DNA of 31,736 nt from a virus, in the IMG/VR virus record IMGVR_UViG_3300045417_000161, positions 1 through 31,736 of that record. One strand, 5' to 3'. Shown in pieces: positions 11,908-26,037 of the stretch (positions are counted from its first letter, which is position 1; each line of letters opens with the position of its first letter). The position numbers and the translations under genes are program-made. Under the pieces are notes generated by a model. It was not told where the DNA came from. It made no database searches and was given only the letters and a program-made list of their open reading frames with translations.

Positions 11908-14900
11908 ATGTCATGTAATTGTATTGGAAATTTTTATACGGATTCTAATGGTAATCAGCAACCGCTTACCGAGTTTATGTGCTTTGAAATTATTGCACAA
12001 AATTCATTCTGCTGCGATACATTTGATAAATCATGTCTCAATACAATTTATTTTGACTCTACGGCAGAAAATTATGTTGGATGTTACGGATGTCCGTCAG
12101 ATAATACTAATTGTTGTTATTTAATTCAAATAGAAGCAAATAGATTAAATCCTGAAGAAAACTCTCAGTGCTGTGAAAATTTTGATTCATATTGCGTTGA
12201 GGCATATGAAACATTAAAAAATACTAAAGGAAATTTTTGTTCTGATACATCTTCTCTGAAGGATTATTATGTAAATACTTACAGTACAGATTACAGACCA
12301 TGTAACTTTAGTGATGAACAAGCAGATAGATGCATAACTGAATTAAATTGTTCTCAAATTAATTCTGAACAATGTTTAAATTCTCTTTATAGTAAATTAA
12401 CAGATTTTTCTAGTGTATGTCAATGTACTTGTTTTAAGCAAGCAAGATATCTTAGTACATGCATGCTTAATGTAATTCATAGAGATCCAACATGTTGCCA
12501 TTCTTGGACAGCAGAATGCGAAGCAATTAAAGAACAATTACAGATAAATCCAGGAGATCCTTGTTCTTTAGTTGCCAGTGAAGGTGATGGATCATTAGCT
12601 GGTCTAGATCCACCAGGCACTCTCAGTTGTGGATGTACCATAAAGGGTCTTCCAACATTTGATGATGTTCCATGTTGTTTTAAGAGATATTGTCAAGACT
12701 TGCAAAATTCGTATGAGCTTGGAGTTTTGCAAGATGGACCATATAACTGTAATGATCTTGGTGTATTTTTAAATAAATTTTTAACTTCTACTGATTTGCT
12801 TATACCAGATTGCCAACCAACTGATTATCCATTAGCTGGCGGTCCTCCTTGCCCAAATACTTTATGCAATGGCTGTGATTATTTTATTCCATCTGGTAAC
12901 GATGGATGGTTATCTGGTTATGATAATATTTGTCCGGGTGAACAGTGTCCAAAATGGCCATGGGGAGCAATTGAAGGATGTAATGTAAAAGGAGCAGACG
13001 CAACAGATTCATCGTTAGGCACTCCTCCAAGAAACCCTCCAACAACTGGTGCAATTTATCCTGTATCTCATAATCATAATGATTGTGCATATGCAATGGC
13101 TCTTCCGATTTATTCATATGGTTGTTCAGAAATATTTTCTAATGTAGAAGAAATGCAAGATTTTATATTAAATCTTGCAAAAAGATTTGCAAATCCAGAA
13201 CAAGAAATAGAAATTCAGGCAACAAATTGCTCAGAGTGCTGCTCAATATGCAGATTTTTTGGAAAAGAATCTTTGGAATGTTCTGGATGTGTAGATACAT
13301 TTAATTTTGCAACAGAAACTCCCGCTATAAACAATGATAATTATCTTGTTTACGAAGGACAGGGTATAACATTTATAGCATCACCTGTGAGAACCCAATA
13401 TCTTTACTATCAATTAGTTTCTGCTTTAGGATTACCAGTAATTGATAAAAATGATATAGATGCTAGTGGAAATGGCATTAACGGAAAACCTTTGGGAATG
13501 ACTGGATTGCTTGGAGCAGTGGGAGATATAGTTAAATTTAATTTGAAGATGAAAAGCGATGGTTCTTTTGAAGGACCAGAATATTTTAGAGTAAAATTAA
13601 TAGAACAATCAGATCTAAATGGCTGTGCACATGGAACATTTCTTTCTAATGCAATTACAGTAAAAGAACCTCCAACATTTACTTTATCTGGAGTTCCCTC
13701 TAATTGTCAGGTAAATGAAGGAACAAATCTTTCTCTAACAATAACTACCACAAATTTCCCAGTAGGAACTATTTATTATAGAATTATTTCTATAATAGGA
13801 GCATCATCTGAAGATTTTGGTATTTCTATGAGTGGATCACTGTCTATAGTAAATAGCAGTGCAACTCTTAATATTCCTATACTTGCAGATCAAATTACAG
13901 AAGGTTCAGGAGAAAAATTTAAAGTAGAGTTTAGTATTACTAGTAGTTTTGATTCTATTGTTGCAACAACAAATAATTCTTGTCCCAACGGCATACAAAT
14001 AAACGATACTTCTGTTACTCCTTTGAATGTAACTATAACAGCTTCTCCGACAAATCCGAATGAAGGAACCATTGTTACATTCCAAATTCAAGCTAATCAA
14101 GCAGGAACTTACTACTATACAATAAATTCTAATGGTAGTCCTTTTGTACCAGGAAATGATTTTATTGCTAATACAGATCCTTTAGCTGATGTAAATAGTA
14201 GTGGTTCTTTTAATATAACTGTACCTAATGGCACTGCAACAATCTATAAAAGAATAAATCCAGATTCTTTAACAGAATCAACTCCAGAATCTTTCTTCAT
14301 GGAGATTAGAAAAGATTCTACTAGCGGAAGTATATTAACAAGTTCATCGATTATTACCATTATTGATAGTTCTGGAACTCCAAGTTATAATATATCTGGA
14401 CCATTAACAGTAGTAGAAGGTAACGATTACACATATAATGTTGTTACTACAAACTCTGCATTTTCTACATTACACTATAGAATTGTTGCAGTAAACAATT
14501 CAACTATTACTACAGCAGATTTTGGTATTCCTCTTACTGGTTCATTTACGCTATCTCCTTCTGGAACATATAATTTGCTATTACCAGTTTTAGAAGGAGA
14601 ATTAGAAGCACCAGAAGAATCATTTAAGATAGAATTGTGGTCTAATGGTTCTTATATAGGCAGTGCTTTAGCAAGCACCCAAACCATAAAAATATTAGAT
14701 ACAACACAAAATGTTTCTATTAGTCAAACTTCTACTTTAATTACAGAAGAACAAAGTGTTACATTTACAGTAACTACAATAAACATAGACGAAGAAATAT
14801 TAACATATAAAATTGTTTCTACTTCTGGAAATATAGTCGCTGGAGATTTTACTCCACCATCTTTAACTGAAAATTTTAATCTAACTGGTTCTACTACAAA

Positions 14901-17900
14901 AACAGGAAATTTTACACTAACATTAGCTAATAATTCCCAATATGAAGGACAAGAAAAATTTAAAGTAGAAATTTATAAACCTTTAGATACGACTCCAATA
15001 ATAACTTCCAATGAAATAACAGTAGTTGATGCAGATTCTACTTTAAGTGTTTCTACATCTGCGATATCTGTAGTTGAAGGAAATTCCTTTAACATTACAG
15101 TAAATTATACTAATTATCCAAATCCAAATGTTTACTATAGATTAGAAACTGCATATGGAGCAGCCATTGATCCATTAGATTTTTCTGGGGGGTTAAATGG
15201 TGCTATTCCAGTATCAGCTTCTAGTACAAGTGTAACACACACTATTCAAACTTTAGAAAGAGACATTTATAGTGGAATTAGAGGATTTTATGTAGTTGTA
15301 TCAAATATTTCTGAAGGCGATGGAGAATCTACAGGAATTATTCAACTTATTGATGCTAATCCAGATTATACAGAAATACAAGTTCCTGTATCGGTTATAG
15401 AAGGAAATTCGTTTAACTTCACAGTAAATGGAACGAACATTCCTAATGGAACGATTCTTTATTACCAAATAATAGGTCTTTCTTCGTCCGATATTGTTGG
15501 CGGAAGTTTAACTGGTAATTTTAATGTAGTAAATAATACAGCAACAGTAACAATAGGAACAGTAAATAATACTGCATTTGAAGGACCAGAAACATTTACT
15601 ATTAAAATTTTTACTAATTCCGCACTTACTATTGAAGTATTAGAGTCTACTCAAATAACTCTGTTTGACGGTACAAAGGTATATGGTCCTCTATCTCCAA
15701 ATTCAGGCAATATAGTAGAAGGAACATCACAAAGTTTTTCTTTTGCAACAGAAAATATAGCTACAGGGACTACAGTATATTATAAAATAATATCAGTTAG
15801 TGGACCCGTAACTGCCGATGATTTTTCTCCAGCAACTTTGACTGGTTCTTTCAATATTGGAAGTTCATTTAATATAACGCTAGCAAACAATATAGCTTCT
15901 GAATTAAATGATGTATTTAAAATACAAATATATTCCGATTCTTCTTTTCAACAATTAAAATATACTAGTGGTAATTTTACTATTAAAGATGCTGCTCCAA
16001 AATATTTTATAGTAGCAGATAAAAATACTGTTGATGAAGGTGGAACGGTATCCTTTGATGTAACTACAGAAAATGTTCCAAATGGAACTAATTTAATTTA
16101 TTATATTACTGGTGATACAAATCAATTTGATTTTGTTCCTGTTGGAATCACGGGCGCAGTAACTATTAATAACAATTTTTATAATTTCAGTCTTGGAATT
16201 TCTGCTGATCTTTCTACAGAAACGGGAGGCGAACAGTTCCAGGTAGTTATTAAGCAAAATGATGCTGGACCAGATTTAAGTGAACCAACTAGTCCTATTA
16301 CAATAAGTGACACATCTGTTTCCTATTATACAATTACTCCAACATCTGGATCTATAGTAGAAGGAAACGCACAAACTTTTACTGTTACAGGAGTTGGTTC
16401 TGGTACTGATGGCACTTTCTATTATGGTATAACTGGAATAAAGGGAGGACAGGAGCTACAAGAAACAGATTTTGTTGATGGTTTTGTTGATAGTTTTAAT
16501 ATTTCTTCTGGAAGTGGATCATTTACTATTACAACAGTACAGAATGATTCTCTGAATAGACAATTTACTGTTAAAGTCGGATCAACAAATGATCCTTATA
16601 ATTCAGTATTAGTAGAAACTGGTATTTTTAATATAACAGATTTAAATGCTGATTATACTGTTACTCCATCTACCTTTTTTATTATAGAAGGACAGGGAAT
16701 AACATTTAATATAACTGCTTTAAATGTTCCAAATGGCACAGTTTTACAATATGCCATAACTAGTACCAATGGAGTAAATTCTTCAGATTTTGTTGGTGGT
16801 TTGAATGGAACAGTTACGATACAAAATCAGTCTGCTATACTGTTCAAACAAACAGTTTTTAATCCTGTTTTTGAAGGTCAACAATCTTTTAGTGTAAAGT
16901 TTTACATAACAGATCCTAATAATCCAGAGATTATTTCACAGGAAATAAATCTTGTAGACGCTTTACCAGAAATAACTCAAATTAGTCCAAATGGATGTAT
17001 TACCTGTGGATGTCCAGAAGGTCAGGTACAAGAGGGGGAAACAGTATCATATACTGTTAATGGAACAAATATTCAAAATGGATCTCAATATAATGCAATC
17101 CTTCAACTTTATCCTGGACAAAATGGATTTATTTCATCTGATGTGTCTCCCGCATCACAAACAATAACATTTAATAATAATACAGCTTCTTTTAATGTAA
17201 ATATTTCAACTACTGGTATAAATCAACTTTACGAGGGAACGGACGAATATATTGTAAGAATTAGACAAGGTACAACTGTAAAGAAAGAGTCTGGTTGCTT
17301 CACTATAATTGATGCACCACCGTCAGCAACCATAACACCATCAGTTTCTTCACTGCAAGAAGGACAAGAAATAACATTTAATGTTTCTGTACAGAATGTT
17401 CCAAATAATTCTTTAATTCAATATAAAATTATTGGATTGTCTGAAGATGATTTAGTAGATGGTCAGCTATCCGGAAACATAACCGTAATTGAATCCGGTA
17501 ACGACTATGTTGGATCAGTTACTAAGAGAATTTCTACAGATTCTGTTTTTGGTGAAGTTGAAAGTTTAGTTTTTGTGATTTATTATAATGATATTGAATT
17601 GGATAGAACTTCCGAAATTCCAATCGTTGATACTACTCCCCCAACTGTACCAACATATACTCTTACCATTTCTGATAGAAGCGTAGGTCCAGGACAATCT
17701 TTTACCATTACTTTAACTACTACAAATGTTCCAAATGGTACAGAATTTGAATTCCGTACAGAAGGATTATTTGGATATGTTCCTAATCCGGATGATTTTA
17801 TTCCAAAACAAATAGTAAGAACTGGTATTCTTCCTAAAAATAATAAAATAATTTTAGATTATGAAATTTTTGAAGACGTAGAAGAAAATTTCTCTTTTAA

Positions 17901-20900
17901 TATACATGTTTATAGAGTAATTACAGGTCTCGTTGATGATTATGAATTAGTTGCTATAAGCGAACAAATTAGATCAACAATTTTAGATAGTGGATGTCAG
18001 AATGGTCCTATTTCTGGAACTTACGGAGAAGATCTTAGTCTATGTTCTGTTTGTGATAACGCATGTGGTTATGTTTCTTTCTGGGGAACGGCGGATGCAT
18101 TTGTTGGTTATAGATCAGAACCACTAAGACAAGCGACAAGTACAGCTATTTGTGATACTTTACCCCCCGGTCAGTGTCCTACTGAAAATTGCCCAAACTA
18201 CGGCTCTCCGTGTGAATATTGCGAAGGGAGTGAATCGTTCGATTGTGCGTGTAAAACAGCACAACTAAATTCTGTTTCTTATGCAAGATTTACTAATAAA
18301 CAATTTATAACTGTTTTGGAGAATGGTGTTTATAAAAATAGAAAAATTGAAGAACCAGAATTAATTGCATATAGAAATTCTGAAATAACCGTACCCGTGT
18401 ATACAATACAAGGACATGATAATTTATGCCCACCACCACCAACGGTATGTGGTAAACCTTATGATTCTGGCGCGGGAATGAATGTTAGTTGTGTTGCTGG
18501 TTATGGAGGAGGCTATAATAGCTGCTATCAATATCAAAATGATAGTTCCTGGAATGGTCTTTTACCAGATACTCAAACATTTTTTGAAACTGGTCCAATG
18601 TGGACTACTACATTCTCATCTGGAATAAATGCTATAAGAAAATCTTATGGTGATGCTCCTTTGTTTGGGAATAGTGATATTGGTTGTGTGAACTCTGTAA
18701 TTTTACCTGCTGTAGTTCCAATAGGATCTGAAATAGATGATGATTTATTTGCCAATTATAGATGTGCAAATCAAAATTATCTTCTTGGAGCACCAAATCC
18801 ACCGGAAGGAATAACTGCTGCGTTTATTGCAGATCATTTAAATGAATCTTTTACAGAAGAACTTTGCAATTTAATTCATAGTTGTTCAAGAGCAGGTGAA
18901 GGAGATATTTGTCAAACTTATTTCTTAGCCAACTGCAAAGAGCAAATGGATTCTCCGTGTTTAACTAGAGCAGAAAGATATGCAATTATAAATGGTTGCA
19001 CTGGAGCATATGGCTTTACTCTGAATAATAATTTTGTTTATAGTTCTAACAGAGATGATTTTGTTTGGTTTTTCCAAGGAATAAGAGCTGGAAATTATAC
19101 TACAACCAGTCCAGGTAATATGGTCAGAGAAGAATATCCAATAATAGAAGGAACAACTGATATAAGAGAAGTAAATCAATGCTTCACATATTATCCAGTA
19201 AATATTGATCCAAATGAAAATTGTTTAATTGCAGATTTTTTTGCTGATCCAATTTATTATTTTGGAACCTTCGAAACAGATCTACAACCTTATATACCTG
19301 ATCTAACAGATTCATGTGATGCAACAATAGTAGATAGAAATGTCGTACTAGTACCCCCACAGCACACTGGTTGTTGCTACAAAAAGAATGAAAATGATTC
19401 ATCAGTAAATTCTACTAAACAATTTAGAACTATAAGTTATTTTTCCAAAGATAGTTTCTTAAAACCTAAAGTTTTAGAGTATTTAAATTCATTAAATGCA
19501 AATTTTAGAACTATTTCAGCAGTAGGTTCTCTTAGTGCATCTGATTTTTATAATGATGCTCTTTGTGAATTTTTTATGCCTAGACACCCGTACTTCGAAG
19601 GACCACCAGAAGGTGCTGCCGCTGGTTCATATGAGAGTGGTGCTCTTGAATATGCTTATGGTTACAAACCAGCTTATGGAGCAGAAGGTAAATTCTATGG
19701 AATAAACACATGTCGAAAATATGATTTATATTATAAAGCAAATGAAATAAAACGAGATGATTTAGGGAATACAACAGTTTTAATAACAGGATATCCAAAT
19801 ACTTACTTTTCTCTTGAAGGAGAATTGCTAGAATGCCAAGATGTAGGTGGTGGTGGTGGTGTAGGTTCTAGTATTGTTAGTGGTGTAGGATTCTTGGGCG
19901 ACGATACAACAGAGTCACCAACAGCACTTTGTTTGATTGATCGTGGAATTAAAAATCCATTAACACCTTGGCCAGCAACTGAAGAAGCAAGAGATGGTAG
20001 AATCCATACAAGCAATGCATATGTTGTACAGATTATAGGGCATGATGGAGGTTTAAATAATCCTAAACTTCCAAACAACAATGCTCCAAAAGTATTTAAT
20101 GCTTGCTTCCCATGCAGAGGATTTATTGATCTACCGATGCAAGGTGATAATCCAATAGATGATGCAGTATTTGCCGAATATGCAGGTATAGGTGATGGGA
20201 TTCAAAGACTAATAATCAAATCTTATACAAAAGAAGGAAATTATAGTGGGCATAGTGTAGGAAGTATTCTTGCACGAATGACATTAAAAGATCAAATAAA
20301 ACAAGAAAATATTTACTATAAAGATATTGCTGAATATTCTTTGATTCTTATTGGATCTGGAATAGAAATTCTTCATACAAGAGAAGTTTCAAAAAAAGAA
20401 TTTTATGAAGTATTAAATTGGAATTCAAATCCGACAGGAATTACTTCATCCAGTAATTCAAGAGCAGAAAAATTAGCACTCGTATATTATACTGGTGTAC
20501 CTTTAGAATCTGCTTTTAATGTAAATAATATTCAATATTATAAAGTTTACTGGCCATTTGGAAGTTTACTAGAATGGTCTGTAGGTGAAAATCGTGCATT
20601 TAAAGATACTGGAGGATATATTGGTCAACAGGGACAAAATGTTTCAGCTTATGTTGGTAGGCGTGATGATCAGCCACCACCAAAATTTGCAGACAGAGTT
20701 AATGCCAACACAGTTCATGGAATTTTTGAAAATGGATTGGGACAAGCAACAAGATTTATAACAAATAGCGATAGAAACGCAAAAGTAAATAATAATATTG
20801 GAATTCTAAGAGTACACAAAGAATACGATATGGGTGGAGGTCATAAGATTCCAAATTGCAGAGAAAAGTTCGAAACACTCAATAGAGATTTGACTAATTG

Positions 20901-21663
20901 TGATCTACCAAACAATCTTGTAATGAATGGTATGTGCTGGATAACAACAGTTCTTCAAAAAGATATCTGGGAACATAGCCATATGCAAGACTGGGTTACG
21001 GTTAGAGAACTTCAAGATCCAGATAATACAAAGTTAAATCTAACAACTTTTGAAGATTGGATCACCACAACAAGATTGACTATTACTTTTGATGAATTTA
21101 TTATTCCTCTTAATCATGTTATTTCAGTATTGAAAGCCGATCAACCAAGTGTTTATATTGGAACTGGTGCATTAAATAGCATTCCAACACCAATCACAGA
21201 AGAATTATACTCTATGCGTAGAGGTAATGAATATGTTTATAATATGAACGATTTGAAGCAAGCTGCAATAAAATCAAAAAATAATAGTTATTCTTGCTTC
21301 GATCCAGATGGACAAAGCGGCGGATATAATTGCTCAGATTACTTCTGTGACTTCTTCTGTCCGTCTTCATTAGAAGCAACAGAAGATAATCTAATTAATG
21401 CATTTAGGCAATGTGATGATGATATATGCGATCCAAATGATCCTTCAATCACATCAAATGGTAAATTTATTAGCGTTCCATCAACTCTATGCTTACAAGC
21501 AATGGTCGCAGAATTAGAGAATACATATTTCTGTTCAGGTACAACTAAACCATTTACTGTTGCTAATATTAAAGAGGTTATTGAAATAATTCTAGAAAAT
21601 AGATCAAATCCTTGCGTATTCCAGTATAATAATAAAGTTTATAGGATAATGAAAGAAGCATGA
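11908..21663 (+). CDS. Giant virion protein with Calx-beta-like repeats, probable fibre/adhesin
   Basis: 3251 aa, the largest gene here. Residues 1 to about 470 are Cys-rich, with a recurring CC-x3-(F/W)-x3-C motif (CC at 35-36, 88-89 and 196-197), resembling Cys repeats in large secreted proteins of planctomycetes and myxobacteria. From about 471 to 2030 there are roughly 14 repeats of about 110 residues. Each opens with V-x-E-G-x-x-x-x-F-x-V, then N-x-P-N-G-T and a YY-x-I strand, and closes with E-x-F-x-V and an I-x-D-(A/T) strand, like Calx-beta/cadherin-type beta-sandwich domains. From about 2030 to the end is a second Cys-rich region with a Gly-rich hinge near 2650. The likely role is a long surface fibre or host-binding protein (inference). 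Confidence 0.75.
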   Translation: MSCNCIGNFYTDSNGNQQPLTEFMCFEIIAQNSFCCDTFDKSCLNTIYFDSTAENYVGCYGCPSDNTNCCYLIQIEANRLNPEENSQCCENFDSYCVEAYETLKNTKGNFCSDTSSLKDYYVNTYSTDYRPCNFSDEQADRCITELNCSQINSEQCLNSLYSKLTDFSSVCQCTCFKQARYLSTCMLNVIHRDPTCCHSWTAECEAIKEQLQINPGDPCSLVASEGDGSLAGLDPPGTLSCGCTIKGLPTFDDVPCCFKRYCQDLQNSYELGVLQDGPYNCNDLGVFLNKFLTSTDLLIPDCQPTDYPLAGGPPCPNTLCNGCDYFIPSGNDGWLSGYDNICPGEQCPKWPWGAIEGCNVKGADATDSSLGTPPRNPPTTGAIYPVSHNHNDCAYAMALPIYSYGCSEIFSNVEEMQDFILNLAKRFANPEQEIEIQATNCSECCSICRFFGKESLECSGCVDTFNFATETPAINNDNYLVYEGQGITFIASPVRTQYLYYQLVSALGLPVIDKNDIDASGNGINGKPLGMTGLLGAVGDIVKFNLKMKSDGSFEGPEYFRVKLIEQSDLNGCAHGTFLSNAITVKEPPTFTLSGVPSNCQVNEGTNLSLTITTTNFPVGTIYYRIISIIGASSEDFGISMSGSLSIVNSSATLNIPILADQITEGSGEKFKVEFSITSSFDSIVATTNNSCPNGIQINDTSVTPLNVTITASPTNPNEGTIVTFQIQANQAGTYYYTINSNGSPFVPGNDFIANTDPLADVNSSGSFNITVPNGTATIYKRINPDSLTESTPESFFMEIRKDSTSGSILTSSSIITIIDSSGTPSYNISGPLTVVEGNDYTYNVVTTNSAFSTLHYRIVAVNNSTITTADFGIPLTGSFTLSPSGTYNLLLPVLEGELEAPEESFKIELWSNGSYIGSALASTQTIKILDTTQNVSISQTSTLITEEQSVTFTVTTINIDEEILTYKIVSTSGNIVAGDFTPPSLTENFNLTGSTTKTGNFTLTLANNSQYEGQEKFKVEIYKPLDTTPIITSNEITVVDADSTLSVSTSAISVVEGNSFNITVNYTNYPNPNVYYRLETAYGAAIDPLDFSGGLNGAIPVSASSTSVTHTIQTLERDIYSGIRGFYVVVSNISEGDGESTGIIQLIDANPDYTEIQVPVSVIEGNSFNFTVNGTNIPNGTILYYQIIGLSSSDIVGGSLTGNFNVVNNTATVTIGTVNNTAFEGPETFTIKIFTNSALTIEVLESTQITLFDGTKVYGPLSPNSGNIVEGTSQSFSFATENIATGTTVYYKIISVSGPVTADDFSPATLTGSFNIGSSFNITLANNIASELNDVFKIQIYSDSSFQQLKYTSGNFTIKDAAPKYFIVADKNTVDEGGTVSFDVTTENVPNGTNLIYYITGDTNQFDFVPVGITGAVTINNNFYNFSLGISADLSTETGGEQFQVVIKQNDAGPDLSEPTSPITISDTSVSYYTITPTSGSIVEGNAQTFTVTGVGSGTDGTFYYGITGIKGGQELQETDFVDGFVDSFNISSGSGSFTITTVQNDSLNRQFTVKVGSTNDPYNSVLVETGIFNITDLNADYTVTPSTFFIIEGQGITFNITALNVPNGTVLQYAITSTNGVNSSDFVGGLNGTVTIQNQSAILFKQTVFNPVFEGQQSFSVKFYITDPNNPEIISQEINLVDALPEITQISPNGCITCGCPEGQVQEGETVSYTVNGTNIQNGSQYNAILQLYPGQNGFISSDVSPASQTITFNNNTASFNVNISTTGINQLYEGTDEYIVRIRQGTTVKKESGCFTIIDAPPSATITPSVSSLQEGQEITFNVSVQNVPNNSLIQYKIIGLSEDDLVDGQLSGNITVIESGNDYVGSVTKRISTDSVFGEVESLVFVIYYNDIELDRTSEIPIVDTTPPTVPTYTLTISDRSVGPGQSFTITLTTTNVPNGTEFEFRTEGLFGYVPNPDDFIPKQIVRTGILPKNNKIILDYEIFEDVEENFSFNIHVYRVITGLVDDYELVAISEQIRSTILDSGCQNGPISGTYGEDLSLCSVCDNACGYVSFWGTADAFVGYRSEPLRQATSTAICDTLPPGQCPTENCPNYGSPCEYCEGSESFDCACKTAQLNSVSYARFTNKQFITVLENGVYKNRKIEEPELIAYRNSEITVPVYTIQGHDNLCPPPPTVCGKPYDSGAGMNVSCVAGYGGGYNSCYQYQNDSSWNGLLPDTQTFFETGPMWTTTFSSGINAIRKSYGDAPLFGNSDIGCVNSVILPAVVPIGSEIDDDLFANYRCANQNYLLGAPNPPEGITAAFIADHLNESFTEELCNLIHSCSRAGEGDICQTYFLANCKEQMDSPCLTRAERYAIINGCTGAYGFTLNNNFVYSSNRDDFVWFFQGIRAGNYTTTSPGNMVREEYPIIEGTTDIREVNQCFTYYPVNIDPNENCLIADFFADPIYYFGTFETDLQPYIPDLTDSCDATIVDRNVVLVPPQHTGCCYKKNENDSSVNSTKQFRTISYFSKDSFLKPKVLEYLNSLNANFRTISAVGSLSASDFYNDALCEFFMPRHPYFEGPPEGAAAGSYESGALEYAYGYKPAYGAEGKFYGINTCRKYDLYYKANEIKRDDLGNTTVLITGYPNTYFSLEGELLECQDVGGGGGVGSSIVSGVGFLGDDTTESPTALCLIDRGIKNPLTPWPATEEARDGRIHTSNAYVVQIIGHDGGLNNPKLPNNNAPKVFNACFPCRGFIDLPMQGDNPIDDAVFAEYAGIGDGIQRLIIKSYTKEGNYSGHSVGSILARMTLKDQIKQENIYYKDIAEYSLILIGSGIEILHTREVSKKEFYEVLNWNSNPTGITSSSNSRAEKLALVYYTGVPLESAFNVNNIQYYKVYWPFGSLLEWSVGENRAFKDTGGYIGQQGQNVSAYVGRRDDQPPPKFADRVNANTVHGIFENGLGQATRFITNSDRNAKVNNNIGILRVHKEYDMGGGHKIPNCREKFETLNRDLTNCDLPNNLVMNGMCWITTVLQKDIWEHSHMQDWVTVRELQDPDNTKLNLTTFEDWITTTRLTITFDEFIIPLNHVISVLKADQPSVYIGTGALNSIPTPITEELYSMRRGNEYVYNMNDLKQAAIKSKNNSYSCFDPDGQSGGYNCSDYFCDFFCPSSLEATEDNLINAFRQCDDDICDPNDPSITSNGKFISVPSTLCLQAMVAELENTYFCSGTTKPFTVANIKEVIEIILENRSNPCVFQYNNKVYRIMKEA

Positions 21664-22100
21664 AAAAATATAATGATGTGTCCGATATGGATAGTGTGAA
21701 AATTCACGAAGAATGGGAAAAAAGTGTATTTGGTGAAGTAGAAACACCAAAATTAACTTTTTGGCAATCTTTTGTTAGTTATATAAAATTTGAAATATCT
21801 TCTATTTTTAATGGAAATGTTTCAACAAAAGTTTTTGAAAAACGAAAAAATATCTGCTTATCTTGTGATGGAAGAATAAAACATTCTTTTGATCCTATTG
21901 GGTTTTGTAATAAATGTGGCTGCGGTAAAAATCCAAGATCTAGACTGTCTGTAAAGTTGACGGTTGCTGGAGCAGAATGCCCATTAGGAAAATGGAAAAA
22001 AGAAAAGGGCAGAATAGCATTTAAGAATATTCCCAAAGTTGCTATTGGAATTTGCGTGACAGTATGGTACAATGTTTCCAGACTATGGAAACGCAACTAG
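21660..22100 (+). CDS. Zinc-ribbon-like protein
   Basis: 146 aa. Cys residues 66/69, 83/86/88 and 107 (ICLSC, FCNKCGC, ECPLGKW) form a likely zinc-binding site. The ending C-P-(L/I)-G-K-W is familiar from small T4-like phage proteins of unknown role. The first 60 residues contain a Trp/Phe-rich amphipathic part (FWQSFVSYIKF). The C-terminus is basic with a hydrophobic stretch (VAIGICVTVWY). Its ATGA overlaps the stop of the giant gene. Its 3' end contains the probable promoter and start of guaC, a 16-bp overlap. Confidence 0.7.
   Translation: MKKYNDVSDMDSVKIHEEWEKSVFGEVETPKLTFWQSFVSYIKFEISSIFNGNVSTKVFEKRKNICLSCDGRIKHSFDPIGFCNKCGCGKNPRSRLSVKLTVAGAECPLGKWKKEKGRIAFKNIPKVAIGICVTVWYNVSRLWKRN
22045..22073 (+). 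promoter_or_regulatory. Sigma70-like promoter for guaC
   Basis: TTGGAA, 17 nt, TACAAT, with TGG directly before the -10. It lies in the 3' end of the preceding gene and would start RNA about 5 nt before the guaC ATG. It falls where codon use shifts to a host-like pattern. Confidence 0.45.
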
Positions 22101-23104
22101 ATTACTCGGACATCCTAATCGTACCTCGTCATTCAAGTGTCAACTCTCGGTCAGAAGTTAATCTGATGCGAGTAAATATCGGACGCATCCCTTGGTCTGG
22201 TGTTCCTATTTTGGCCGCTAATATGGCAACAATCGGAACTCTTGAGATGGCAGAAGCCCTAGCTAAGAGCATGTGGCTTACTTGCTTACACAAGCACTAC
22301 ACGGCAGCAGAGATTCTTTCTCTATCGAAGGATGGGCAGTACTTCTCTGCTCCAACTATTGGATTGGATAGCAATAGTCGTGAAACTTTCCGACAGGTGA
22401 TGGAACAACCAAATGAATTTAAGTTTGTTTGCATCGATGTTGCCAACGGTTACATCGATAACTTCAGTGAATTAGTGTACAATATTCGTCGTGAATATGG
22501 AGATCGGGTAAATATCATTGCGGGTAATGTTGTTACCCCAGAAGGAGTAAGGCTACTATGCAAGGCAGGCGCGGACTTTATCAAGGTTGGAATCGGCCCC
22601 GGAAGTGCATGCACGACACGCAAGATGACCGGAGTAGGGTTTCCACAGTTCTCAGCAGTCCAGATATGTGTAAAAGAAGCACGACAAATCCCAGGACTGT
22701 CGGGAATAGTCGCGGATGGTGGGTGCGTACATCCCGGTGATGTCTCCAAGGCATTTGCCGCAGGAGCACAGATGGTCATGCTCGGAGGAATGCTAGCAGG
22801 CCACGATGAAGCTGGTGGATGGGTGTTCGATTACACCACAAATACAATGATTCCTACATTTTACGGCATGGCATCAGAGCATGCGATGCAGACACACTAC
22901 AACCAACGGAATCATTATCGTGCAGCAGAAGGCAAGCGAGTTGTTATTGAACCAAAGGGTCCAGTAGAAAATACTGTGCGAGAAATCATGGGCGGTGTTC
23001 GTTCGGCATGTACTTATGTTGGCGCAAAGAATCTTGATGAACTTTCTAAGAATTCAGGTTTCATCAAGGTAAATCGCCAGTACAATACTGCCTTCGGAGA
23101 CTAA
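22085..23104 (+). CDS. guaC: GMP reductase
   Basis: 339 aa, about the usual length. GMP reductase converts GMP to IMP with NADPH and releases ammonia. Visible landmarks are the N-terminal YSDILIVPRHSSVNSRSEV, AANMATIGT, CIDVANGY, the catalytic loop GIGPGSACTTRKMTGVGFPQ with Cys176, ADGGC, MLGGMLAGH, FYGMASEHAM, and the closing GPVENTVREIMGG with RSACTYVGA. The PQFSAV and YGMASE signatures fit GMP reductase rather than IMP dehydrogenase, and there is no CBS domain. The ATG at 22085 gives the family N-terminus; earlier TTG and ATG codons would add unrelated residues. There is no clear Shine-Dalgarno. Codon use is more host-like (CGT, ATC) than in the late genes. It may shift guanine nucleotides toward adenine for an AT-rich genome (inference). 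Confidence 0.93.
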   Translation: METQLDYSDILIVPRHSSVNSRSEVNLMRVNIGRIPWSGVPILAANMATIGTLEMAEALAKSMWLTCLHKHYTAAEILSLSKDGQYFSAPTIGLDSNSRETFRQVMEQPNEFKFVCIDVANGYIDNFSELVYNIRREYGDRVNIIAGNVVTPEGVRLLCKAGADFIKVGIGPGSACTTRKMTGVGFPQFSAVQICVKEARQIPGLSGIVADGGCVHPGDVSKAFAAGAQMVMLGGMLAGHDEAGGWVFDYTTNTMIPTFYGMASEHAMQTHYNQRNHYRAAEGKRVVIEPKGPVENTVREIMGGVRSACTYVGAKNLDELSKNSGFIKVNRQYNTAFGD

Positions 23105-23993: not shown

Positions 23994-23995
23994 TT

Positions 23996-24108
23996 TATCC
24001 AGCGGCGTGGTAGGAACACGCGGTGTTGAGAAGACTCGCGCTAGTGTAAAACGGTTTACTTTAATTGACCGATAAAGCTAGGAAATGGGTGCAAATCCCA
24101 TATGGATT
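23996..24108 (+). other. Structured spacer with tRNA-like ends
   Basis: Between two tRNAs. ATCCA (23997) can pair with TGGAT (24103). GCGTG/CACGC makes a D-arm-like hairpin near 24005. ATGGG, TGCAAAT, CCCAT (24085-24101) makes a T-arm-like hairpin of canonical size. The 63 nt in between give no acceptable anticodon arm. It could be a decayed tRNA, an interrupted tRNA or another small RNA. Confidence 0.4.
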
Positions 24109-24110
24109 TT

Positions 24111-24857: not shown

Positions 24858-25049
24858 ATGTATAAACATGGCGAAAAAATTGTAAATTCTGAGAATAGCC
24901 GTCCTTGCACTGTTGTTGGCTCACAAACCTCACGGGCAAAGGACAAGAAGGGTATGATTTACGAAGAAACTGAGTATTGTGTCCGCTATGAGGATGGCTC
25001 AACGGACTGGATTTCAGCAGAAAGCGCAAAGAAGCTTTTAATCGACTAA
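24858..25049 (+). CDS. Small hypothetical protein, SH3-like
   Basis: 63 aa. Short beta-strand sequence (VVGSQTSRAKDKKGMIYEE, YCVRYEDGSTDWISAE) suggests a small barrel such as SH3 or KOW types; the function is unknown. GGAG lies 6 nt before the ATG, and a sigma70-like promoter is 34 nt upstream. Its TAA overlaps the next ATG as TAATG. Confidence 0.7.
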   Translation: MYKHGEKIVNSENSRPCTVVGSQTSRAKDKKGMIYEETEYCVRYEDGSTDWISAESAKKLLID

Positions 25050-25315
25050 TGGCATACCGCATTCACATCGATATCCCCCTCGTAGTCTCCTGCCAAGAGG
25101 AGGCTGTAATCGCCACCAAAGCCATTATGCAGAGTCTAGCCTCCCCAGAGGCCCTACAGTCTGTAAAGGCTCACAGCGGCACACAGGTCAACTATCGCCT
25201 TGGGGACGATACTGACCGCCAGAAGAGCAATTATTTGGTTTTGACTCCTTCTGGGCATGTTACTAACCAAAAATGTAAAATTCTCTTGACAGAAGAGGAA
25301 CCATTAGTAGAATGA
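25049..25315 (+). CDS. Small hypothetical protein
   Basis: 88 aa, unknown. It opens MAYRIHIDIPLVVSCQEEAV, then an Ala-rich helix and a polar C-terminus. The first half has higher GC and host-like codons (ATC, CTA, GCC) than neighbouring late genes. Translation is coupled to the gene before by TAATG. Its last codons contain a sigma70-like promoter for the tRNA-Ile region. Confidence 0.7.
   Translation: MAYRIHIDIPLVVSCQEEAVIATKAIMQSLASPEALQSVKAHSGTQVNYRLGDDTDRQKSNYLVLTPSGHVTNQKCKILLTEEEPLVE
25286..25313 (+). promoter_or_regulatory. Sigma70-like promoter for the tRNA-Ile region
   Basis: TTGACA (perfect -35), 16 nt, TAGAAT. Transcription would begin near 25320, at the head of a structured stretch, and continue through tRNA-Ile to the terminator at 26000. 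Confidence 0.6.
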
Positions 25316-25319
25316 TGGT

Positions 25320-25424
25320 GTAACAGGGAACGACAAAGCACAAATCGTTCCGCCCTAACGGGAAAGCGAGTACTAGATCGCTGGCACATTTGGGAGGGAT
25401 CCCAGTTCCAAATGGTGCTAAAAT
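25320..25424 (+). ncRNA. Structured leader or small RNA upstream of tRNA-Ile
   Basis: About 105 nt without a gene that fold into a row of hairpins. GGAACGA pairs with TCGTTCC (7 bp). CCC pairs with GGG around TAAC. AGCGA pairs with TCGCT. ATTTGG pairs with CCAAAT, enclosing GGGATCCC, with flanking GCAC/GTGC extending the stem. No tRNA T arm is present. It begins where the sigma70-like promoter would start RNA. It may be a processed small RNA or a leader removed during tRNA maturation; no known RNA family is recognised. Confidence 0.5.
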
Positions 25425-25426
25425 TT

Positions 25427-25499
25427 GGGTAGGTAGTTCAATCGGCAGAACCTTCCGCTTATAACGGCAGATGTGTGGGTTCGATCCCCACCCTACTCA
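25427..25499 (+). tRNA. tRNA-Ile (UAU)
   Basis: 73 nt. Acceptor GGGTAGG/CCTACTC (one G-U) with discriminator A. The D stem is GTTC/GAAC. The anticodon stem TTCCG/CGGCA has one T-C mismatch, and loop CTTATAA gives anticodon TAT. The T arm is GTGGG, TTCGATC, CCCAC. It reads AUA without needing the lysidine modification used by the usual bacterial CAU isoacceptor. Confidence 0.85.
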
Positions 25500-25513
25500 T
25501 TGGAGACATAAGT

Positions 25514-25666
25514 ATGATTATGACTGAAGAAGATAGAAAAATTGTACTAACTCTCAAGGATGAGATTGAAAAGATCAAGGTCAATATGATTCTGGAGAAT
25601 AAAAAGATTGACCAAATTGTTTCAGTTTTAACTAAAATTATTCAAAAGGAGAATAATAATGCATAA
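25514..25666 (+). CDS. Small coiled-coil protein
   Basis: 50 aa from the ATG at 25514, with GGAG 8 nt upstream; an earlier in-frame TTG start would lie inside the tRNA. Regular Ile/Leu/Val spacing (KIVLTLKDEIEKIKVNMIL, then IDQIVSVLTKIIQ) indicates a helix that may pair as a coiled coil. It overlaps the membrane protein gene by 8 bp. Function unknown. Confidence 0.65.
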   Translation: MIMTEEDRKIVLTLKDEIEKIKVNMILENKKIDQIVSVLTKIIQKENNNA

Positions 25667-25973
25667 TTTTATGAATGTTTTTACTTACCGTTCGCTTGCT
25701 ATTTTTACCGGATTTGCTGCTTTGATTCTACACCTTGATAACGCAAAGGCTCCACTTGTTTGGGCATTTGTTAGCCTTACCGTTTTCCTGCTTATTGCAG
25801 AAATTCATCTGCTCTCAAAGAAAATCTGCGATCTTGAGCGTAGCCATGCTGACAGAACTACACAAGATCGTCTTGATGATATTCGTTGTAGTTTGCAGCA
25901 ACAGGCTTATGCCATTAATGAGCGTATTGACAATTGTTCAAACAGTGTTTGTAAGGCAAAGAATCGCCTCTGA
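25659..25973 (+). CDS. Small membrane protein with coiled-coil tail
   Basis: 104 aa. Two hydrophobic segments at about residues 8-26 and 32-49 form a membrane hairpin. The remainder is a charged helix with Cys (KKICDLERSHADRTTQDRL) facing the cytoplasm or periplasm. AAGGAG upstream is strong. It is the last gene before the terminator. It could be a lysis-timing, superinfection or host-envelope protein; nothing in the sequence decides which. Confidence 0.7.
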   Translation: MHNFMNVFTYRSLAIFTGFAALILHLDNAKAPLVWAFVSLTVFLLIAEIHLLSKKICDLERSHADRTTQDRLDDIRCSLQQQAYAINERIDNCSNSVCKAKNRL

Positions 25974-25999
25974 GCTAGTTAGTTAATTTATTTTTAAAA

Positions 26000-26027
26000 A
26001 CCCCCCGGCTCCAGCGGGGGGTTTTTT
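26000..26027 (+). terminator. Intrinsic terminator of the tRNA/metabolic block
   Basis: An 8-bp stem, ACCCCCCG/CGGGGGGT, with a 7-nt loop, followed by six T. It separates the early-type block from the late promoter 3 nt further on. Confidence 0.93.
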
Positions 26028-26029
26028 CG

Positions 26030-26037
26030 TATAAATA
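26030..26037 (+). promoter_or_regulatory. T4-type late promoter
   Basis: Exact TATAAATA right after the terminator and 5 nt before the ATG at 26043, again predicting a leaderless transcript. Confidence 0.85.

Follow-up and report, generated by a model that had tools for sequence, protein, structure and literature searches.

A structured 5´ leader of a phage tRNA-Ile unit as a candidate small RNA

In a 31.7-kb uncultivated virus record, the whole of which (31,736 nt) we call the window, a structured RNA is predicted between a promoter and a tRNA-Ile gene. We propose that this RNA, at 25320-25425, serves as 5´ leader to a phage tRNA-Ile unit and is released by RNase P as a small phage RNA with a trans-acting role, a reading to which we give about even chances. 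The proposal draws on sequence evidence: a promoter motif, a predicted structure, conservation, covariation in one hairpin (H4), and replacement or loss of the RNA among relatives. The unit appears to be ordered as promoter, RNA, tRNA-Ile, two small ORFs and terminator, and would be co-transcribed. Its features and the adjacent gene are as follows.

25049-25315, + strand: 88-aa ORF; no Pfam or PHROG match, homologues at 31 loci
25286-25313, + strand: sigma-70-type promoter motif TTGACA-16-TAGAAT; hexamer spacing kept in 22/22 contigs
25320-25425, + strand: module A RNA, candidate structured 5´ leader; start placed about 7 nt after the -10 hexamer
25325-25382, + strand: near-invariant 58-nt core (H1-H3)
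25327-25333/25345-25351, + strand: hairpin H1, 7 bp GGAACGA/UCGUUCC with an 11-nt loop; stem invariant
25353-25355/25360-25362, + strand: hairpin H2, CCC-UAAC-GGG; invariant
25366-25369/25378-25381, + strand: hairpin H3, GCGA/UCGC; 5 bp GCGAG/CUCGC in some relatives
25382-25420, + strand: hairpin H4, with a covarying 6-bp base at 25382-25387/25415-25420
25426-25500, + strand: tRNA-Ile(UAU), called by ARAGORN; Rfam tRNA score 54.8 bits
25514-25666, + strand: 50-aa ORF in the same transcription unit as tRNA-Ile; no Pfam match
25659-25973, + strand: 104-aa ORF in the same unit
25999-26030, + strand: strong intrinsic terminator from the terminator scan, ending the tRNA-Ile unit

The minimum-energy fold of 25316-25425 (110 nt) consists of four hairpins at -34.5 kcal/mol, with a z score of -2.6 (2 of 200 shuffles were equally low). 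The leaders of relatives gave z scores of -3.9, -4.2, -4.1 and -2.8, and in all three cases compared the + strand scored more negative than the - strand. The leader contains no ORF of at least 60 aa, and neither ARAGORN nor the Rfam tRNA model finds a cloverleaf in it, both placing a tRNA only downstream. The earlier note had described about 105 nt with four hairpins and no gene after a near-perfect sigma-70 promoter, and had held that this stretch was not itself a tRNA; the fold, the ORF list and the tRNA searches bear this out.

The promoter, too, is present as claimed, with an 11/12 match (-35 TTGACA at 25286-25291, a 16-nt spacer, and -10 TAGAAT at 25308-25313). As stand-alone proof the motif was rejected: three sites matching at least 11/12 occur on the + strand of the window, compared with a mean of 1.0 and a maximum of 3 in 40 dinucleotide shuffles, so such sites are expected by chance. 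Since the motif by itself is within chance, the weight of the promoter evidence comes from its conservation. All 22 IMG/VR viral contigs found with the tRNA-Ile pattern carry TTGACA and a second hexamer 16 nt on, ahead of the tRNA. The -10 hexamer is TAGAAT in 17 contigs, TATAAT in 4 and CAGAAT in 1, the last belonging to L042 (the same contig as L053), which has no RNA at this place. The promoter of the window lies inside the 3´ end of the 88-aa ORF, whose stop overlaps the -10 region. By eye, an inverted repeat, CCATCAT...ATGATGG, surrounds the -10 hexamer in L024 and several relatives, and the window has lost part of it; the repeat may represent an operator or merely a coincidence of coding.

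The position of the RNA is that of a 5´ external transcribed spacer (ETS): it is contiguous with both promoter and tRNA, on the same strand, with no terminator-like site between. The terminator scan finds none between the leader and tRNA-Ile, and the sequence 3´ of H4 is AAAATTT or similar instead of a U run, with the H4 region abutting the tRNA. An ORF starts 14-20 nt after tRNA-Ile in 20/20 rows examined, and the downstream part of the unit, ORFs as well as terminator, persists whether the RNA is present or absent.

We examined conservation in an alignment of the 9 distinct module A sequences among 17 module A copies. Within the core, about five or six columns vary among the 9 sequences, none of them in a stem common to all; two of the changed positions fall in the loop of H1, three in the loop and closing position of H3 taken together, and one is the last base, which is also pair 1 of H4. 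Between the window and L040, its most diverged relative, the core is identical at 56/58 positions, compared with 170/237 nt in the adjacent 88-aa ORF (protein 67% identical), 133/189 in the next ORF upstream, 29/39 in the promoter and pre-core segment, and 67/73 in tRNA-Ile. For this pair, the core differs from the adjacent ORF (Fisher p 1e-5) and from the promoter and pre-core (p 3e-3) but not from the tRNA (p 0.30). By this measure, the core is conserved to a tRNA-like degree, unlike its flanks. The 9 distinct sequences form one clade in which only L040 and L041, with identical leaders, are well diverged, so the core may owe its conservation to having recently passed into one lineage.

The check for covarying stems that the earlier note had proposed was informative for H4. 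Pairs were counted with hand-set arms, since MAFFT misplaced H4 in the window, where this hairpin exceeds that of most relatives by 23 nt. Among the six pairs of the H4 base, three (1, 4 and 6) vary in both arms, two (2 and 5) vary in one arm, giving G-U on the + strand, and one never changes; across 7 classes, 42/42 cells are paired and none is broken. Because two of these changes are G-U on the + strand, this is the likely RNA strand. H1 and H2 never vary and therefore yield no covariation, their pairing resting on energy and conservation, and variation in H3 is confined to the loop and closing position. Covariation in H4, together with conservation of the core above its flanks, supports a structured RNA under selection.

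Module A occupies the interval between promoter and tRNA-Ile in 16 of the 22 contigs. In four others a different, unrelated set of hairpins, module B, stands at the same place, preceded by an additional hairpin in L030, and in two (L024 and L042) there is no RNA and the same promoter would drive the tRNA directly. The promoter and tRNA-Ile stay in place in all three states. The H1 pattern was found solely in the 16 module A contigs and a 27-mer of module B only in its four. With 2/22 contigs lacking module A altogether and 4/22 carrying another RNA, module A is dispensable. A tree of the flanks was built from 236 nt before the promoter and 165 nt after the tRNA in 20 rows, with L021-L023, copies of the window's leader, omitted. 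On this tree, the distribution of A, B and none takes three changes of state. The two RNA-less contigs share an unstarred branch (90/88) with L025, L026 and the window; module B appears in two places, L036, L038 and L039 lying among module A rows under a starred branch (99/99) and L030 apart, and the starred branches imply that module B alone accounts for two changes or more. Because "none" and module B are nested inside module A in this tree, the cassette appears to have been both swapped and lost. The presence of module A in the outlying L040 and L041 suggests, though not firmly given that these two outgroup leaders are identical, that module A is old here.

We take the following course of events to fit these observations. 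RNA polymerase would start near 25320 and carry the leader, the tRNA and the ORFs in one transcript. Maturation of a tRNA requires a cut by RNase P at its 5´ end, and this cut would set the leader free as a separate molecule, about 80-105 nt long; since the leader has no terminator of its own, its existence as a separate RNA would depend on that cut. H4, near the 3´ end of the released RNA, could serve as an interchangeable protective cap, a role that fits because H4 varies in sequence and length yet keeps its stem. The 58-nt core would be the working part, binding a protein or RNA of the host or phage; a binding surface fits because the core hardly changes in sequence, and this conservation suggests a specific partner. 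Transcription from the promoter, RNase P release, stability and the trans-acting role are the steps that we infer. The RNA would thereby be a cassette between a constant promoter and a constant tRNA, filled by module A, the unrelated module B, or nothing.

The chief rival is a leader that acts in cis, either by binding RNA polymerase as a put-like antitermination or antipausing element, or by stabilising the tRNA precursor or guiding its processing, a reading that we regard as possible though on the unlikely side. The RNA begins just after the promoter, its tandem hairpins and conserved stretch of about 60 nt are somewhat like putL of HK022, and module B likewise puts hairpins at this place, as though hairpins mattered. 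However, a terminator lies about 500 nt after tRNA-Ile in 20/20 rows, with or without the RNA, and there is therefore no long operon for read-through; the RNA-less contigs retain the rest of the unit; and the exactness of core conservation exceeds what a mere stabiliser would need. Nine more distant loci (L043-L051) also argue against it, since in them, as read by eye, a short leader or no leader at all separates the ORF from a tRNA-Ile-like gene. A TTGACA-16-TATAAT-type promoter is visible by eye in 8/9 of these loci, and ARAGORN calls the tRNA-Ile only in L043.

A broader version of the released-RNA proposal strikes us as unlikely: the promoter-tRNA-Ile interval would be an exchange site for small-RNA cassettes, in which non-homologous structured RNAs (A, B, B with the extra hairpin of L030, or none) are swapped under one promoter, their shared source of 3´ ends being RNase P cleavage at the tRNA. 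The RNAs would then be accessory effectors directed against the host, for example decoys or inhibitors of host defence, and the site would be the RNA counterpart of accessory-gene hot spots.

It is quite improbable that the hairpins are functionless palindromic inserts gained and lost by recombination between promoter and tRNA. Such turnover would account for the three alternatives seen at this place (A, B or nothing), for dispensability in two contigs and for the 23 extra nt in H4 of the window, but conservation and covariation already disfavour it: the core is far closer to that of L040 than the adjacent gene is (56/58 against 170/237), the changes in H4 are compensatory, and no other copy of the core or of module B was found in the contigs scanned. 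A mobile hairpin repeat was rejected on the same count, with a single strong copy per record. Least probable of all is a separate small-RNA gene that makes its own 3´ end and merely adjoins the tRNA, for which the promoter and self-contained fold would speak, since no terminator or U run separates the RNA from the tRNA it abuts and the same promoter would drive the tRNA directly in the two RNA-less contigs. The earlier note's suggestion of a phage small RNA is borne out in part: this is a structured and conserved phage RNA that belongs to no Rfam family and covaries in H4. It would be a small RNA in its own right only through processing, the RNA having no terminator of its own and forming the 5´ leader of a tRNA-Ile and two-ORF unit.

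Returning to the proposed released leader, we searched for homologues and partners. The Rfam search likewise proposed in the earlier note was run with Rfam 15, and the leader matches no family: the gathering score was reached only by four tRNAs across the whole window, only by the tRNA in 25200-25520 with hits taken down to E 10, and only by tRNAs in L036, L030, L040, L025 and L024. A covariance model, R1, built from the 9 distinct cores and run against 27 records, gave one strong match per record in 11/11 module A records and none above 22 bits elsewhere. Weak R1 matches (E < 0.01) in L009, L012 and L013, 16-mer bystanders whose scores are biased because they were preselected by that 16-mer, were set aside as chance; by eye their context is protein-coding-like and holds nothing else of the core. 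Two patterns searched in bacterial and archaeal genome contigs gave 0 matches, and no match to the RNA was found in plasmids. A blastn search of 25200-25520 against 50,697 phage records gave weak matches only (E >= 0.09 among the best 20 of 33), most of them over the tRNA part. A base-pairing scan of four segments against 27 start regions of the window gave no signal, the best segment being equalled or beaten by 8/100 shuffles and the other three by 85-99/100. In the literature searched, nothing was found on this RNA; the word tRNA is absent from the main text of a 2025 review of phage small RNAs (PMC12197685), and according to the portion consulted of a 2021 review, reports of a stable RNA from the 5´ external spacer of a bacterial tRNA were lacking (PMC8166272), which speaks against a stable released leader.

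Other features were noted in the window and its relatives. In the best 12 of 2538 matches, the terminase of L071, a related record of greater length, shares 55-57% identity with T4-like terminases of cyanophages, and the clade is taken as T4-like because these are the nearest among the matches listed. A tRNA-like cloverleaf at 23995-24110, between tRNA-Arg and tRNA-Gln, is called a tRNA by neither ARAGORN nor Rfam; it has an AUCCA/UGGAU acceptor, D-, anticodon- and T-like arms and a long variable arm. This element is 93% identical over 111 nt in L040, occurs also in L025 and L026, and is absent from L027, L033 and L036, where the Arg and Gln genes abut; a second non-coding RNA and a non-canonical tRNA are both possible readings. 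A tmRNA gene with the tag peptide ANTRAFAMAA is present in the distant related phage loci L045, L047, L049, L050 and L051. The window also carries a single ORF of 3251 aa at 11908-21663 and an IMP dehydrogenase/GMP reductase-like phage protein (Pfam PF00478) at 22052-23104.

If released and stable, the leader would be a phage small RNA excised by tRNA processing and, together with module B, would represent a small system that exchanges RNAs rather than genes at a fixed site. As the core is short and almost invariant, its partner would be open to direct pull-down once the host is known. We regard it as a phage non-coding RNA associated with a tRNA gene, here in the form of an exchangeable leader, and it belongs to no Rfam family.

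The nearest kind is the pair of stable T4 RNAs known as C and D (species 1 and 2), small structured non-tRNA RNAs of unclear function inside the T4 tRNA cluster. The likeness, one of description, is that of a small structured non-tRNA RNA beside tRNA genes in a T4-like phage, but RNAs C and D sit within the cluster whereas the present RNA would be a promoter-proximal leader. The put RNA of phage HK022 binds the zinc-binding domain of the beta-prime subunit of RNA polymerase and suppresses termination. Its putL site is about 70 nt long with two stem-loops and lies just downstream of PL, as given in the part of the source consulted (PMC9378689). Compared by description, place and length fit, with tandem hairpins right after a phage promoter, and the arrangement of stems differs: put has two long stems ahead of long early operons, and the present RNA has three or four small hairpins ahead of a tRNA and a short unit. 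In E. coli, 3´ETS-leuZ, a spacer cut from a tRNA precursor, acts as an sRNA sponge, according to the same portion of the 2021 review (PMC8166272); the likeness lies in an RNA cut from a tRNA precursor and acting by itself, a release that is presumed for the present RNA, but 3´ETS-leuZ is a host 3´ spacer and ours would be a phage 5´ leader. CfrI, described in the sections consulted of the 2025 review (PMC12197685) as a cyanophage antisense RNA, resembles the present RNA as a non-coding RNA, in its case from a cyanophage; the terminase of the present clade is nearest to cyanophage T4-like ones among the matches listed. CfrI is antisense to psbA, whereas the RNA described here lies downstream of its neighbouring genes and is not antisense to them.
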